From: Bacteroidaceae bacterium
Lineage (GTDB): Bacteria > Bacteroidota > Bacteroidia > Bacteroidales > Bacteroidaceae
DNA: 51,432 bases
Reading direction: 5' to 3'
Assembly: GCA_017470425.1 (NCBI GenBank)
Contig: JAFUYT010000010.1
Span: forward strand, 1 to 51,432
Positions 38,755-49,316 of this stretch are shown piece by piece. A program made the position numbers and the translations under genes. Numbering within the stretch: position 1 is the first letter of the stretch; every line of letters starts with the position of its first letter. The notes beneath the pieces were generated by a model that was given only the letters and a program-made list of their open reading frames with translations, was not told the origin of the DNA and did no database searches.

Positions 38755-39849
38755 GTTCTTTTTCTTGTTGCTCTTTTCTTTCTTTCCTCTTGCAAGAAGG
38801 AAATGGTCATTCCCCGCGCCAGCGGACGTCCCTATGAGGTGATGGTGGTGATGAGCGACCAGGCATGGCAGGCCAAGGAGGGCCGCGCGCTGTTCACGGT
38901 CCTCGACACCGACATCCCCGGTCTGCCGCAGCCCGAGCGCTCGTTCCATATCTCGCAGGTCGATCCGAAGCGCTTCGACCAGATCCTGAACATCTTCCGC
39001 AACATCATCATCGTAGATATCAACTCGCAAATCTACACGAAGACGTCGATGAAGTTCACGCGCGACAAGTACGCCATCGACCAGATCGTGCTGACCATCC
39101 AGAGCCCCTCGGCCAATGAGTTTGCCGACTTCTGCTTCGACCACGGGCAGGACATCATCGACTTCCTCACGAAGATGGAGATGAACCGTCTCATCAAGGA
39201 ACTCAAGGACAAGTACTCCAAGAAGACCGCCGAGCTGGCCAAGGAGATCTTCGACTGCGAGCTCCACGCCCCCGACGAGATCAAGAGCTACAAGCGGGGC
39301 GAGAACTTCTTCTGGACAAGTTCCAACGGCGCCTCGGCGCTGGTGAACATCTGCATGTACAGCTACCCCTACGAAGGTCCCCAGACCTTCAACAAGCAAT
39401 ACGTCCTGGCCAAGCGCGACAGCGTGATGGCCGTGAACATCCCCGGCACGCTGCCCTCGATGCACATGGCCACCGATACGCTCTGCACCTCGGTCAAGCC
39501 CATCGTCGTCCACAACCAGTACGCCCTCGAGGCGCGCGGCCTCTGGTACATGGAGAACGACGGCATGGGCGGTCCCTTCGTCAGCCACTCCCGCGTGGAT
39601 ACGACCCGCAACCTCGTCATCGTCGTCGAGGGCTTCGTCTTCGCGCCGGAGAAGATGAAGCGCGGCCTCATGCGCCGCCTCGAAGGCTCCCTCTACACCC
39701 TCAACCTGCCCGACGAGCAGACATCGCCCATCGTGACCACGATGGAGGAGGTGGCCGTCACGGCGGAGGACAGGAGGGAAATGCGAGAAAAGACCCACTC
39801 CCCGCTCGGCCCAACGGGACGCTCGACCCTTCGAGAACCCCTCCCGTGA
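38671..39849 (+). CDS. DUF4837 family lipoprotein with repeat-derived ends
   Basis: This 392-residue protein belongs to DUF4837, a Bacteroidetes lipoprotein family of unknown role. Characteristic text is 'RPYEVMVVMSDQAWQAKEGR', 'QILNIFRNIIIVDIN' and 'EGFVFAPEKMKRGLMRRLEG'. The signal is odd: MQSLKSLYRICLAK, then 14 residues from repeat F-G ([14 protein letters not shown]), then the hydrophobic core VLFLVALFFLSSC with lipobox cysteine 41. A GTG in frame at 38713 could be an alternative start. The C-terminus also runs into element H, adding 'EKTHSPLGPTGRSTLREPLP'. Genes before (rlmN) and after (pdxA) are in the same direction. The two repeat-bearing ends could reduce export, although the core is unbroken. 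Confidence 0.85.
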   Translation: MQSLKSLYRICLAKVTTPSLIGRAGGESVLFLVALFFLSSCKKEMVIPRASGRPYEVMVVMSDQAWQAKEGRALFTVLDTDIPGLPQPERSFHISQVDPKRFDQILNIFRNIIIVDINSQIYTKTSMKFTRDKYAIDQIVLTIQSPSANEFADFCFDHGQDIIDFLTKMEMNRLIKELKDKYSKKTAELAKEIFDCELHAPDEIKSYKRGENFFWTSSNGASALVNICMYSYPYEGPQTFNKQYVLAKRDSVMAVNIPGTLPSMHMATDTLCTSVKPIVVHNQYALEARGLWYMENDGMGGPFVSHSRVDTTRNLVIVVEGFVFAPEKMKRGLMRRLEGSLYTLNLPDEQTSPIVTTMEEVAVTAEDRREMREKTHSPLGPTGRSTLREPLP

Positions 39850-40012
39850 GGGAGGGGAGTGCCTGCGGGATGTGGGCATATCGGATGAGAGAAAGGAGGC
39901 GGTAAACAATTTAAGAAATGTTAGATAAGAAATAACCTATAGCAATGTCCCCGCAATAACTTCTAAGCGCCAGCCGCTCCCCTCCCTTACGGGAGGGGTT
40001 GGGGGTGGGTCT
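39791..40012. repeat. Palindromic inverted-pair element H, between DUF4837 and pdxA
   Basis: The left unit starts AGACCCACTCCCC and contains the GCTCGGCCCAACGGGACGCT block plus CCCCTCCCGTGAGGGAGGGG. The right unit (39967-40012) is 42 of 46 identical to the right end of the DUF559 element. About 110 bases of AT-rich spacer lie between. The DUF4837 stop lies in the left unit. Confidence 0.8.
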
Positions 40013-40032
40013 GCTGGGGGCTTTCTTAAACT

Positions 40033-41102: not shown

Positions 41103-42389
41103 ATGGACGCTAAAGAACTACAACCCATCAAGCAGCGCTACGGCATCGTCGGCAACTGCGAGGCGCTGAACCACGCGCTGGACACGGCCCTGCAGGTGGC
41201 GAAGACCGACCTCTCGGTGCTCATCACGGGCGAGAGCGGCGTCGGCAAGGAGATCATCCCCCGCCTCATCCACGACAACAGCCTGCGCCGCACCCGCAAG
41301 TACTTCGCCATCAACTGCGGCAGCATCCCCGAGGGTACCATTGACAGCGAGCTCTTCGGCCATGAGAAAGGTGCCTTCACGGGTGCTATCGGCGAGCATG
41401 AAGGCTACTTCGGCGCTGCCGATGGCGGCACGCTCTTCCTCGATGAGGTGGGCGAGCTCCCGCTGAGCACACAGGCTCGTCTGCTGCGTGTCCTGGAGAC
41501 GGGCGAGTACATCCGCGTGGGCAGCAGCGAGGTGCGCAAGACGAACGTCCGCATCGTCGCCGCCACCAACGTCAACATCCAGCATGCCATCCGCGACGGC
41601 AAGTTCCGCGAGGACCTGTTCTACCGCCTGAACACCATCCCCATCAAGATGCCGCCCCTGCGCGAGCGTGGCGAGGACATCCTCCTGCTGTTCAAGAAGT
41701 TCGCGATGGAGATTGCCGCCAAATACCAGATGCCGGAGCGCATCACCCTCTCGCCCGATGCCGAGGAGGTGATGAAGCGCTATAAATGGCCGGGTAACAT
41801 CCGCCAGCTGAAGAACGTCACCGAGCAGATGTCCATCCTGATGCGCGACACGCGCGTCGTCACCCCCGACGTCCTCTCCGACTACGAGATATGGCCCACC
41901 ATCGAAGAGCAAGGAGGCCTCGTCAGGGTGGGGCAGGGCGCTGCCGACGCGCATAGCTATCAGGCCGAGCGCGAGATGCTCTTCCAGATGATCAACGCCC
42001 TCCACCGTGAGGTCAGCGAGCTGAAGCAGCAGGTGGCCGGGAAAACGATCACCCCTGGCGGCCTCACCCCCGACCCCTCTCCCAGAGAGAGGGGAGTGGT
42101 TACTGTGGTGGATGGCTATCCTGTCAATAACAAAAGCGTTTACTCCCCTCTCTCTGGGAGAGAGGTTCTCGATGGGGCGAGCGGCCCGATGGGTCGGACG
42201 GGGGGAGAAGCCCCCTATGCCGAGGAATATGTCGAAGAGTCCCTCTCCATCGACGAGCAGGAGAAGCGCCTCATCGTCAAGGCACTGGAGAAGTATCGCG
42301 GACGCCGCAAGAAGGCTGCCGAGGAGCTGCACATCAGCGAGCGTACCCTGTACCGTAAGATCAAGGAGTATGGTCTGGACGAACTGTAG
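41103..42389 (+). CDS. Sigma-54-dependent transcription activator without receiver domain, with in-frame repeat insert
   Basis: The AAA+ domain starts almost at once (about residue 15). Walker A is 'GESGVGKE' (about 44-51), GAFTGA loop 'EKGAFTGAIGEHEG', Walker B 'GGTLFLDEVGELPLS' and the R-finger region 'KWPGNIRQLKNV'. The C-terminal Fis-type helix-turn-helix is 'GRRKKAAEELHISERTLYRK'. No N-terminal sensor exists, so activity must be set by another protein or by expression level. Between the AAA+ and DNA-binding domains, residues 320-371 come from palindromic element I. Length 428. The lptE start overlaps its last 20 bases. In Bacteroidales this regulator commonly sits in this gene cluster (memory, not searched). 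Confidence 0.92.
   Translation: MDAKELQPIKQRYGIVGNCEALNHALDTALQVAKTDLSVLITGESGVGKEIIPRLIHDNSLRRTRKYFAINCGSIPEGTIDSELFGHEKGAFTGAIGEHEGYFGAADGGTLFLDEVGELPLSTQARLLRVLETGEYIRVGSSEVRKTNVRIVAATNVNIQHAIRDGKFREDLFYRLNTIPIKMPPLRERGEDILLLFKKFAMEIAAKYQMPERITLSPDAEEVMKRYKWPGNIRQLKNVTEQMSILMRDTRVVTPDVLSDYEIWPTIEEQGGLVRVGQGAADAHSYQAEREMLFQMINALHREVSELKQQVAGKTITPGGLTPDPSPRERGVVTVVDGYPVNNKSVYSPLSGREVLDGASGPMGRTGGEAPYAEEYVEESLSIDEQEKRLIVKALEKYRGRRKKAAEELHISERTLYRKIKEYGLDEL
42062..42215. repeat. Palindromic inverted-pair element I, inside the sigma-54 activator
   Basis: The left unit (42062-42098) has CCCCTCTCCCAGAGAGAGGGG. The right unit (42141-42215) has CCCCTCTCTCTGGGAGAGAGG, then a GATGGGGCGAGCGG block and GGGGGGAGAAGCC. 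The GCTCG(G)CCC / TTCGAGAA motif is shared, in opposite orientation, with elements F-G and H. In frame, it adds about 50 residues in a domain linker. Confidence 0.8.
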
Positions 42390-46497: not shown

Positions 46498-47823
46498 ATG
46501 TTCGAAAATCTATCTGAACGCCTGGAACGCTCCTTCAAGATCCTGAAGGGCGAAGGCAAAATCACAGAAATCAATGTCGCCGAGACACTGAAGGATGTGC
46601 GCCGCGCACTCCTCGATGCCGACGTGAACTATAAGGTGGCCAAGTCGTTCACCGACACGGTCAAGCAGAAAGCCCTCGGGCAGAACGTCCTTACAGCCGT
46701 GAAGCCGCAGCAGATGATGGTGAAGATCGTCCACGACGAACTCGCCCTCCTCATGGGCGGCGAGACGGCGGAGCTCAACCTGAAGAGCCATCCCGCCGTC
46801 ATCCTCATGGCAGGTCTCAATGGTGCGGGTAAGACCACCTTCGCTGGCAAGCTCGCCAATATGCTCAAGAGCAAGCGGAGCCGTAACCCCTTACTCGCTG
46901 CCTGCGACGTCTATCGTCCGGCTGCTGTCGAGCAGCTCCGTGTGCTCGGCGAGCAGATCGGTGTGCCCGTGTATATGGAACTGGACAACCAGGATCCCGT
47001 GAAGATCGCGCAGAACGCCATCATCGAGGCGCGCTCGAAGGGCTACGACACCGTCATCGTCGATACCGCCGGTCGTCTGGCCATCGACGAGAAGCTGATG
47101 CAGGAGATTGCGGCCATCAAGGCTGCCATCAACCCCGACGAGACGCTCTTCGTGGTCGATGCCATGACGGGTCAGGATGCCGTGAACACCGCCAAGGAGT
47201 TCAACGACCGCCTCGACTACACGGGCGTCGTACTCACCAAGCTCGACGGTGACACCCGTGGTGGTGCCGCCCTCTCCATCCGCACCGTCGTGGATAAGCC
47301 CATCAAGTTCGTGGGCACAGGCGAGAAGATGGAAGCCATCGACCCGTTCCACCCCGCACGTATGGCCGACCGCATCCTCGGCATGGGCGACATCGTCAGC
47401 CTCGTAGAGCGTGCCCAGGAGCAGTACGATGAGGAGGAGGCACGTCGCCTGGAGAAGAAGATCCGCAAGAACCAGTTCGACTTCAACGACTTCTACGCCC
47501 AGATCCAGCAGATCAAGAAGATGGGTAACATCAAGGACCTCGCCTCGATGATTCCCGGTGTGGGCAAGGCCCTGAAGGATGTTGATATCGACGACAACGC
47601 CTTCAAGAGCATCGAGGCCATCATCCTCTCCATGACTCCCAAGGAGCGCACCCACCCCGAATGTCTCAACACCAGCCGCCGCCGTCGCATCGCCGTCGGC
47701 TCCGGCACCGACATCGCCGCCGTCAACCGCCTCATCAAGCAGTTCGACCAGACCCGCAAGATGATGAAGATGGTCACCGACCCCAAGATGGCCGCCATGA
47801 TGGCAAAGATGCCGAGGAGATAA
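46498..47823 (+). CDS. ffh: Signal recognition particle protein Ffh
   Basis: Ffh with 4.5S RNA delivers ribosomes making membrane proteins to the Sec/YidC system. Motifs: G1 'GLNGAGKTTFAGKLA' (about 106-120), 'ACDVYRPAAVEQLRVLGEQI', 'VDTAGRLAIDE' and 'TKLDGDTRGGAAL'. The methionine-rich M domain follows, with 'KMGNIKDLASMIPGVGK' and the C-terminal 'MMKMVTDPKMAAMMAKMPRR'. The 441-residue length is normal. The stop codon lies at the very edge of the DUF559 element, which begins within TAAAGACCC. Ffh itself is complete. Confidence 0.97.
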   Translation: MFENLSERLERSFKILKGEGKITEINVAETLKDVRRALLDADVNYKVAKSFTDTVKQKALGQNVLTAVKPQQMMVKIVHDELALLMGGETAELNLKSHPAVILMAGLNGAGKTTFAGKLANMLKSKRSRNPLLAACDVYRPAAVEQLRVLGEQIGVPVYMELDNQDPVKIAQNAIIEARSKGYDTVIVDTAGRLAIDEKLMQEIAAIKAAINPDETLFVVDAMTGQDAVNTAKEFNDRLDYTGVVLTKLDGDTRGGAALSIRTVVDKPIKFVGTGEKMEAIDPFHPARMADRILGMGDIVSLVERAQEQYDEEEARRLEKKIRKNQFDFNDFYAQIQQIKKMGNIKDLASMIPGVGKALKDVDIDDNAFKSIEAIILSMTPKERTHPECLNTSRRRRIAVGSGTDIAAVNRLIKQFDQTRKMMKMVTDPKMAAMMAKMPRR

Positions 47824-47870
47824 AGACCCACCCCCGACCCCTCCCGTGAGGGAGGGGAGGGGCTGGCGCG
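47822..47870. repeat. Left inverted end of element J
   Basis: Starts AAAGACCCACCCCCGACC at the ffh stop codon, continues through the palindrome CCCCTCCCGTGAGGGAGGGG and ends GGCTGGCGCG. It can also act as a stem after ffh. Confidence 0.85.
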
Positions 47871-47897
47871 ATGTGTGGAAATTGATAGATTAATAGA

Positions 47898-48269
47898 ATG
47901 AACGACGAACTGAAGTGGGCCGCTAGCGATCGATATCCTTTATTAAAGGATTATGCTCGCAAGAACAGGATGAATCCAACGGATGCAGAGCTGTTGTTGT
48001 GGCGGCAACTAAGAGATCGGGCATTGGGAACGAAGTTCTTTCGACAATATATCATAGCTGACTACATCGTTGATTTTGTCTCTCTGGAATATATGTTGAT
48101 CATCGAAGTAGATGGTGCTTATCATTCTGAACTTGAGCAAAAAGAGAATGGTGAAGGGCGTTCTACTCGTTTGAAGAGTCTTGGCTTCAAAGTGATCCGA
48201 ATTTCCAATGAGGAAGTATGTAATTCAATAGAACAAGTAATAGAAACCATAAAACTCCATCTTTTATGA
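47898..48269 (+). CDS. DUF559 Vsr-like endonuclease-fold protein
   Basis: The 123-residue protein has '[20 protein letters not shown]', then '[20 protein letters not shown]' and '[10 protein letters not shown]', followed by '[19 protein letters not shown]'. The D...ExD pattern and Arg in the last part match the PD-(D/E)XK-like DUF559 family, relatives of very-short-patch-repair nucleases. A catalytic role in moving the element is an inference. The codons are AT-rich (by eye near 42 percent GC) against the GC-rich ffh and folD, which suggests a foreign origin. Its TGA stop (48267-48269) overlaps the folD ATG (48266), so the two may be translationally coupled. Start at 47898 is 27 bases after the left repeat. 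Confidence 0.85.
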
Positions 48270-49204
48270 GTACAAATAGTGATACTACGCGCCAGCCTCT
48301 CCCCTCCCTCACGGGAGGGGCCGGGGGTGGGTCTTTTATCGACGGAAAAGCGACGGCGGCGGCTATCAAGGCTGAGATTGCCGAGGAAGTGAAGAAGATT
48401 GTAGCGGCAGGCGGCAAGCGGCCTCATCTCGCCGCCATCCTCGTGGGCCACGACGGTGGCTCCGAGACCTATGTAAGTAATAAGGTACGCGCGTGCGAGG
48501 AGTGTGGCTTCCAGAGCACACTCATCCGCTTCGAGGACGACATCACCGAGGAGGAGCTCCTGTCCTGTGTGTCGCGGTTGAATCGCGACGACAGCGTCGA
48601 TGGCTTCATCGTGCAGCTGCCCCTGCCGCGTCACATCGACGAGCAGAAGGTCATCGAGGCCATTGACTACCGCAAGGATGTCGATGGCTTCCATCCCATC
48701 AATGTCGGGCGCATGGCCATCGGCCTGCCCGCCTTCGTCAGTGCCACGCCCAAGGGCATCCTGGAGCTCCTGCGCCGCTACGGCGTGGAGACCAGCGGCA
48801 AGAAGTGCGTCATCCTGGGCCGCTCCAACATCGTAGGCAAGCCCATGTCGCAGCTGATGATGCAGAAGGGCGTCGATGCCACCGTCACCGTCTGCCACTC
48901 CCGCTCGAAGACCTTGAAGGAGGAGTGCCTGCAGGCCGACATCATCATCGCTGCCATCGGACAGCCCGCCTTCCTGAAAGGCGATATGGTGAAGCCCGGC
49001 GTGGTGGTCATCGACGTGGGCACCACCCGCGTGCCCGATGCCTCGCGCAAGAGCGGCTTCCGCCTCCAGGGCGATGTCGATTTCGATTCCGTCGCGCCTC
49101 TCGCTTCCAAGATCACGCCCGTGCCCGGTGGGGTAGGGCCCATGACCATCTGTATGCTGATGCAGAACACGCTTGCGGCGGGCAAGAAGGAATACTATGA
49201 TTAA
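48266..49204 (+). CDS. folD: Methylenetetrahydrofolate dehydrogenase/cyclohydrolase FolD
   Basis: FolD converts 5,10-methylene-THF to 10-formyl-THF (one-carbon pathway). Conserved text: '[20 protein letters not shown]' with the 'YVSNK' active lysine, '[20 protein letters not shown]', '[14 protein letters not shown]', the NADP motif '[13 protein letters not shown]' and '[19 protein letters not shown]'. The first 23 residues ([20 protein letters not shown] and on to GGS) are not FolD-like and come from the right end of element J. Normal homology begins at [12 protein letters not shown]. The length of 312 is about 20 more than usual. The ATG overlaps the DUF559 stop. An array of AT-rich repeats follows the stop. 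Confidence 0.95.
48288..48336. repeat. Right inverted end of element J, inside the folD coding sequence
   Basis: Begins CGCGCCAGCCTCTCCCCTCC, holds the stem CCCTCCC...GGGAGGG and ends GGGGGTGGGTCTTT. It is codons 8-23 of folD and encodes [11 protein letters not shown], similar to [11 protein letters not shown] from elements B and F-G. Confidence 0.85.
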
Positions 49205-49316
49205 TTCATAATTCACAATTCATAATTCACAATTCATAATTCACAATTCATAATTCATAATTCACAATTCATAATTCACAATTCATAAATCATAAGTCAT
49301 AATTCATAATTCATAG
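49203..49316. repeat. AATTCATAATTCAC tandem array after folD
   Basis: About eight units of AATTCA[TC]AATTCA directly follow the folD stop and degrade into AATCATAAGTCATAATTC. The unit is the same as the arms of element D (29104-29210). There is no ORF in it. It is best read as an intergenic simple repeat that expanded by slippage. Confidence 0.85.

Follow-up and report, generated by a model that had tools for sequence, protein, structure and literature searches.

In a 51,432-nucleotide stretch of DNA from a Bacteroidaceae bacterium (hereafter the window; GenBank assembly GCA_017470425.1, contig JAFUYT010000010.1), positions 47822-48336 hold a small gene for a DUF559 nuclease framed by inverted ends that fit a triplex-forming motif. 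We read this segment as one copy of a class of mobile elements in which a DUF559 gene lies between inverted triplex motifs and the nuclease is the likely mobiliser (probability ∼0.7). The pairing found in the window and its recurrence in many bacterial groups suggest that a widespread repeat of unexplained origin goes back to a family of tiny mobile elements not recognised so far. Comparison with other genomes showed that the segment is a discrete unit, inserted at sites that are empty in relatives, accompanied by nuclease-less pairs and laid out in frame with host genes, and that the association of gene and ends holds in many groups.

The left end of the element occupies positions 47822-47870 of the forward strand; the right end, its inverted copy, occupies positions 48288-48336 of the reverse strand. 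The first-pass annotation of the window had claimed 49-base inverted ends identical at 47 positions, and the match was recomputed as 47/49, with mismatches at arm positions 16 and 39. The stem-loop that it assigned to each end was recovered as well: an 8-bp stem (CCCCTCCC/GGGAGGGG) with a loop of 4 nucleotides (nt) in either arm, located in the left end at 47838-47845 (stem), 47846-47849 (loop) and 47850-47857 (stem). The head of the left end, GACCCACCCCC, is the complement of the third strand of the triplex motif; the tail end is GGCTGGCGCG. Both ends fit the triplex-motif rule (see below) faultlessly, with 8/8 pairs and 8/8 triads on the left and on the right. In folding of single-stranded DNA the left arm beat all of its shuffles (200/200, z = −3.15); the folding energy of the right arm was unremarkable (z = −0.76, equalled by 40 of 200 shuffles). 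The end core has six matches in the window at up to 3 mismatches (0.08 expected), and no Rfam family reached its gathering threshold over 47500-48700. The DUF559 gene itself (47898-48269, forward strand, 123 residues; PF04480, E-value 7.9e-29) is, as annotated, an AT-rich gene in GC-rich surroundings: GC content is 40% in its open reading frame (ORF) and 39% in the element interior as against 60% in ffh and 62% in the folD body.

The window protein scores 100.2 bits with PF04480 (gathering threshold 20.6). Its relatives in PDB are 3HRL (E-value 5.6e-13) and 3R3P (E-value 0.0053), the latter named a mobile intron protein, which we take to be I-Bth0305I. DUF559 presumably belongs to the Vsr-like or EDxHD group of nucleases of the PD-(D/E)XK type, and the sequence matches agree with this assignment. 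When 28 sequences were aligned, the invariant residues kept in the window protein included T28, E31, Q50, D59, F60, E70, D72, G73, H76 and R88, while two residues conserved in at least 90% of sequences, D85 and F102, are replaced by G and I; the G041 relative L030 retains D85. A defence system was considered and rejected: the sole match for the protein was a weak one, to a PADLOC homing-endonuclease model (E-value 5.7e-5). Phage or plasmid origin was rejected too; the protein had one weak phage record (34% identity), megablast of the element against plasmids gave no match and no viral contig contained the protein's exact peptide patterns.

The genome to which the window belongs (G000; 36 contigs, 72% complete) contains five DUF559 matches, all located between inverted palindromes and all passing the triplex rule on both sides. 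The check proposed earlier, whether other DUF559 genes of this genome have such ends, was thus positive for all four remaining genes. The five sites, with gene names given by eye, are cysD/cysC, mutA/mutB, leuD/a leuA relative, argG/acetyltransferase and ffh/folD.

Looking beyond this genome, 37 of 61 genus genomes (other G numbers below denote congeners) contained DUF559, as did 222 of 395 genomes of a phylum sample, weak matches counted. The triplex rule (stem 7-9, loop 2-7, gap 1-5, score −2 or better) was drafted after the elements and the study PMC4666352 had been seen. It was applied to loci from the genus, from the phylum (L075-L104, among the best-scoring matches and not random) and from many phyla (the best 80 of 561), leaving out loci with fewer than 150 nt on a side (1/74, 1/30 and 3/80, respectively). 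In the three samples together the motif stood on both sides of DUF559 at 147 of 179 loci, compared with 3/677 shifted windows and 0/358 shuffled sequences. The corresponding counts were 66/73 in the genus (shifted 2/285, shuffled 0/146), 24/29 in the phylum (1/106 and 0/58) and 57/77 in many phyla (0/286 and 0/154). Among control genes, folD had the motif on both sides in 1 of 25 cases and Y1_Tnp in 0 of 4. Inverted repeats in the flanks, with score at least 15, were found at 59/69 genus loci (shifted 2/552, shuffled 0/690), 10/24 phylum loci (0/192 and 0/240) and 53/77 loci from many phyla (0/423 and 0/385); here, loci with cut flanks were left out (11/104 in genus and phylum, 3/80 in many phyla). 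Titles of the many-phyla records include Proteobacteria, Chloroflexi, Nitrospirae, Desulfobacterales, Phycisphaerales, Patescibacteria, Gastranaerophilales and Rickettsiales.

The third strands of a pair point outward in 64 of 66 genus elements; outside the genus (n = 81) 18 pairs are outward, 34 inward and 29 in the same direction. The number of DUF559 genes and the count of two head types correlate over the 61 genus genomes (Spearman 0.58), and in the phylum sample DUF559 is associated with one stem pattern (odds ratio 3.7, p = 1e-4); neither figure is corrected for kinship. An element's own partner was the best match of its end in 33 of 44 elements (3/5 among the copies of the window's genome), a test that is partly circular because elements were selected for matching ends. 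Similarity of nucleases and similarity of ends are correlated (Mantel r = 0.51, 0/5000 permutations), as is expected from joint inheritance.

The ffh-folD junction could be parsed in 29 of 30 fetched genus loci (one was left out). A DUF559 element was present in two junctions (G000 and G041), a gene-less motif pair in one (G048) and partial remnants in two (G019 and G003); the other 24 had none of these, though a short palindrome (L122) and another small gene (L115) occurred among them. Occupied, remnant and empty junctions, which the annotation had proposed to compare, therefore all exist. It had also held that DUF559 genes lying between ffh and folD of relatives without such ends would speak against an element; none was seen, and a DUF559 element from another clade at ffh-folD of G059 has ends of its own. 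The small gene of L115 (G051) looks by eye like a 23S intervening-sequence four-helix-bundle gene; it lies between GGTTAGC runs and the inverse GCTAACC and is perhaps another minimal element.

Similar patterns were seen at other sites. In MetH, 19 of 30 fetched relatives could be parsed (11 were unparsed by motif): the linker holds an in-frame DUF559 domain in three of them (segment of 172-184 residues), is 44 residues long with a motif-like peptide in one and 29-31 residues long in 15. The nuclease-less pair L160 lies close to the start of another gene; G041 and G019 do not have it, these being the only 2 of 12 fetched loci in which the site was readable across. Where the pair is present, the gene has lost its first codons and, by eye, an ATG within the element can serve as its start instead. 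Homology between L005 and L054, which lie at different sites, stops at the ends: it covers 1376-1890, within one base of the end-to-end span. The related elements L027 (G033) and L071 (G013) are located at seemingly the same gene end, with both ends of one of them changed together to another motif type. Recent transfer suggested by high identity (L083, L089, L090) was not upheld, as boundaries of these loci are unclear because of their embedding in motif arrays. The first-pass annotation spoke of a self-moving element; insertion is borne out by occupied and empty sites and by five copies with ends in one genome, and movement by the nuclease itself is the part that we infer.

The host genes remain translatable around the window element. 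The upstream gene on the forward strand, ffh (46498-47823; name assigned by eye), has its stop codon at 47821-47823, so the left end, which starts at 47822, overlaps that codon as had been described. Downstream, the DUF559 stop codon is overlapped by an ATG at 48266 (ATGA), and the frame opened there crosses the right arm and enters the folD body (48338-49204, forward strand; PF00763 and PF02882), which has no start codon of its own. The right end had been placed 'inside folD'; as a simple statement this did not hold, and it is better described as part of a new in-frame N-terminal extension of FolD with 24 residues and a new start codon (48266-48337, forward strand). The same layout is found in G041 and in other genus elements, while folD has its native ATG at empty junctions, e.g. 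in G018 (gap of 10 nt) and G040. After folD and before the tRNA-His gene, there is an AT-rich run with ATTCATA/ATTCACA-like repeats (49205-49316).

In 54 genus elements the DUF559 stop precedes the right end; an ATG frame continues through this end and for at least 30 codons more in 36 of them (upper-bound expectation 21.2); 14 of 16 ATGA overlaps are open. In 7 of 63 genus elements the nuclease frame itself runs into downstream sequence, and in 2 of 63 it stops inside the end. On the other side, 56 of 63 elements have an upstream ORF of at least 100 residues that terminates close to the outer edge of the left end, from 150 nt ahead of it to 60 nt past it. By a mechanical rule, internal in-frame cases make up 32 of 184 loci, a count to be read as mechanical because open frames in GC-rich genomes can arise by chance; the LeuRS case (L079) is not counted among them, owing to the low inverted-repeat score of its ends. 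In nine of ten proteins scanned with Pfam, DUF559 either has a host domain to each side or comes with a host domain matched in two stretches. Different host domains flank DUF559 in MetH, HsdR, LeuRS, Mfd and PriA; a single domain is reported in two stretches in a BioA-type aminotransferase, EarP, a RibE-type protein and HsdM. In the IspE-like protein, Pfam covers the N-terminal side only.

Many copies of the repeat have no nuclease gene. Within the window, an inverted pair of the same repeat family without a nuclease lies at 39788-40013; its left copy is interrupted between head and stem, and its right copy is L135. A head of the other type, GCCTCACCCCCGACCCCTCTCC, was found at 42061-42082 by the genus pattern search. 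With up to 1 mismatch allowed, the head GACCCACCCCCNNCCCCTCCC was found 40 times in G000, and 35 of the 61 genomes contain it, compared with no hit for the reversed control. For the head GCCTCACCCCCNNCCCCTCTCC, neighbours closer than 600 nt in four genomes were head-out in 35 cases, head-in in one and tandem in one, often 105 nt apart. Of the head-out pairs, 33/35 are at most 194 nt apart and so too short to hold a DUF559 gene; the two wide ones measure 420 and 496 nt, the latter being the DUF559 element L018. The tail GGCTGGCGC of the window element was seen in many of 30 G000 loci that were read, and nuclease-less copies of this genome share the window end including the tail GGCTGGCGCG. L160 and L161 are gene-less and have the same end and tail as the window element, as the definition of miniature inverted-repeat transposable elements would have it. 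At least three GGCTGGCGC tails were found in all four genomes with a window-type nuclease (G000, G015, G033 and G041) and in 6 of 57 others; G013, with a related nuclease (L071), other ends and no tails, was counted among the 57, a decision made after seeing the data. A strict tie between repeat type and cognate nuclease was not accepted, as it is only partial. That the shorter pairs nearby derive from the element, as had been claimed, is plausible in view of the shared ends and tail, while causation goes beyond this comparison. Two pairs of G000 loci, L146/L156 and L157/L163, have identical 68-base stretches on different contigs, perhaps duplicated assembly contig ends.

In the mechanism that we propose, the nuclease would recognise its cognate triplex or hairpin end, likely with one strand unpaired, and would nick or cut the target; repair would then copy the element in, a homing-like replicative insertion. 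Gene-less pairs could be carried in trans, giving rise to the repeat population of the genome. Insertions would last mainly where the host stays translatable. Two kinds of tolerated site can be suggested: stop-start junctions of gene strings, where in the genus the element end often gives the start codon, and linkers within proteins, with in-frame reading through the two ends and the nuclease.

Several observations weigh against the nuclease as mobiliser. Catalysis and movement are our deductions from sequence and not observations and strand transfer is not known for a PD-(D/E)XK nuclease acting by itself. The window copy may be a weak nuclease, given D85G; a single-sequence structure model had a mean predicted local distance difference test score of 55.5, too low to use. 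Orientation of the motifs varies in the many-phyla sample (n = 57; 30 inward, 9 outward, 18 in the same direction). The correlations given above ignore phylogeny, and individual genomes depart from them: G018 has the most heads (93) with DUF559 not found (80% complete), some heads are carried by 12 of the 24 DUF559-less genus genomes and neither of the two head types was found in 4 of the 37 that bear DUF559. In the phylum sample, the stem pattern occurs in 51 genomes, 10 of which are without DUF559 (one with 24 stems), and 181 of the 344 genomes that do not have the pattern carry DUF559. For 18 of 63 genus elements the DUF559 stop precedes the right end and there is no ATG read-through. By eye, occupied ffh-folD junctions lack host bases including the folD start, and inspection by eye of ffh-folD and L160, whose nearest empty sites are rather distant, revealed no target duplication. 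Finally, ycjD of E. coli K-12 (b1289) has one full and one decayed motif, both on the 3′ side, and therefore does not display a flanking pair.

The interval with ycjD is also difficult as an empty-site comparison. Its DNA is present in 3360 of 5426 complete E. coli genomes. In the four ycjD-less strains viewed (fabI-sapF interval, L291-L297), a TetR/RND efflux operon starts there, and the fully viewed ycjD-less interval holds this operon up to sapF; it is thus not a clean empty site. With motifs on one side only, ycjD was not retained as a clean case.

How else could a DUF559 gene come to lie between such motifs? The motifs might have arisen otherwise and serve as a target into which DUF559 homes, the gene being copied in by break repair. 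This is possible but on the unlikely side. It would suit the gene-less pair at ffh-folD of G048 and the longer MetH linker L251 beside occupied ones, the joint change of both ends in L027/L071 and the similarity to 3R3P; however, nuclease-less pairs are equally explicable as deletion derivatives, and at the orthologous site of L160 in relatives the motif pair itself is absent. Homing into motifs overlaps with mobilisation by the nuclease, and the two are hard to separate on these data. We consider it considerably less probable that DUF559 is cargo and that another enzyme, such as a transposase of the RAYT (REP-associated tyrosine transposase; REP, repetitive extragenic palindrome) or HuH type, or host repair, moves pairs of triplex motifs. 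The prevalence of close pairs too short for a gene, the 93 heads of G018 and the strand-transfer point raised above would agree with it. The six genomes with strong Y1_Tnp matches are also somewhat richer in heads (median 12.5 versus 3.0). Yet Y1_Tnp was not found in G000 (72% complete) or in the repeat-rich G015, G018, G019, G029 and G033; it matched in 22 of 61 genomes, 17 over the cut-off, and its correlation with heads was not significant (Spearman 0.20, p = 0.12), so RAYT/HuH was rejected as the enzyme. Moreover, one nuclease family is paired with the motifs in many phyla (other genes between motif pairs were not searched for).

A resident host gene for Vsr-like repair, with motifs as fixed terminators or regulators and nothing mobile, is very improbable. 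Many elements are indeed common to one site across species, and Caulobacter VsrA is reported to cause an SOS response in cells that lack a cytosine methyltransferase (PMC12907096). Such a gene would hardly be expected in five copies at five sites of one genome, at many sites with empty counterparts in relatives and in frame inside unrelated enzymes. An artefact, whereby common GC-rich repeats or poor assemblies make any gene look framed, is scarcely credible: many of the genomes are metagenome assemblies and repeats are abundant in some, but shifted windows at the same loci (3/677) and the folD (1/25) and Y1_Tnp (0/4) controls stayed near zero, and inverted ends also occur in named isolates such as Luteimonas.

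Mobilisation by DUF559 would have a wider meaning. It is an even bet that DUF559 nucleases are the missing mobilisers of the BoxC/PIT/triplex repeats of more than 260 bacterial genomes, i.e. minimal elements made of a Vsr-like nuclease and triplex-forming ends and tolerated through in-frame translation and re-supplied start codons. If so, they are possibly among the smallest autonomous elements, and ones that keep their own host genes translatable. Tying triplex repeats to one nuclease family makes the question of their origin testable in ordinary laboratory strains and suggests what a domain of unknown function, present in many bacteria, may do. It may also explain the odd insertions in bacterial enzymes of peptides rich in P, S, G, R and E.

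The core CCCTCTCCC...GGGAGAGGG served as the literature query that led to the BoxC/PIT/TM motif. Holder et al. (2015, PMC4666352) describe this motif as a hairpin in which a mirrored third strand comes after the purine strand. BoxC/PIT repeats that form triplexes date back in the literature to the 1990s, and the study describes the origin of the motif as unclear, with no mobility gene around E. coli copies. By sequence, the ends reported here are built alike, with a pyrimidine stem, a loop, a purine stem, a short gap and a mirrored third strand. E. coli K-12 has five inverted pairs according to the same study. The copies described there for E. coli are always intergenic and without nearby mobility genes, whereas here the motifs form the ends of a nuclease gene and occur inside genes as well. 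A search for literature linking DUF559 with inverted repeats found none in the sources covered, subscription journals being mostly outside the search so that a report there is possible; DUF559 papers mentioning REP and palindromic sequences appear, from their listing, to be unrelated.

Other known systems share one or another of these features. Caulobacter VsrA (CCNA_02930) and E. coli YcjD, taken as Vsr-like host enzymes, belong to the same protein family, and the accessible descriptions mention no link to triplex repeats. EDxHD or Vsr-like homing endonucleases share a Vsr-like nuclease domain, judged by sequence similarity (3R3P, 3HRL and the PADLOC model, E-value 5.7e-5); unlike them, the element has its own inverted ends and several sites per genome, with no intron or intein seen. 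REPtrons, in which RAYT genes are associated with REPs and REPINs, likewise combine a small gene between inverted palindromes with gene-less pairs (PMC3733652). Their GTAG/CGTC tag, as given in that paper, was found on neither strand of the two 49-nt arms of the window element; GTAG is present in the tail of some other elements. Here, the enzyme is DUF559 and not Y1/HuH, and the ends are triplex motifs. Rickettsia palindromic elements, compared here by description only (PMC10969869), also place palindromic DNA in frame in unrelated protein genes; they are ∼150 bp long, whereas the elements described here enclose a nuclease gene.

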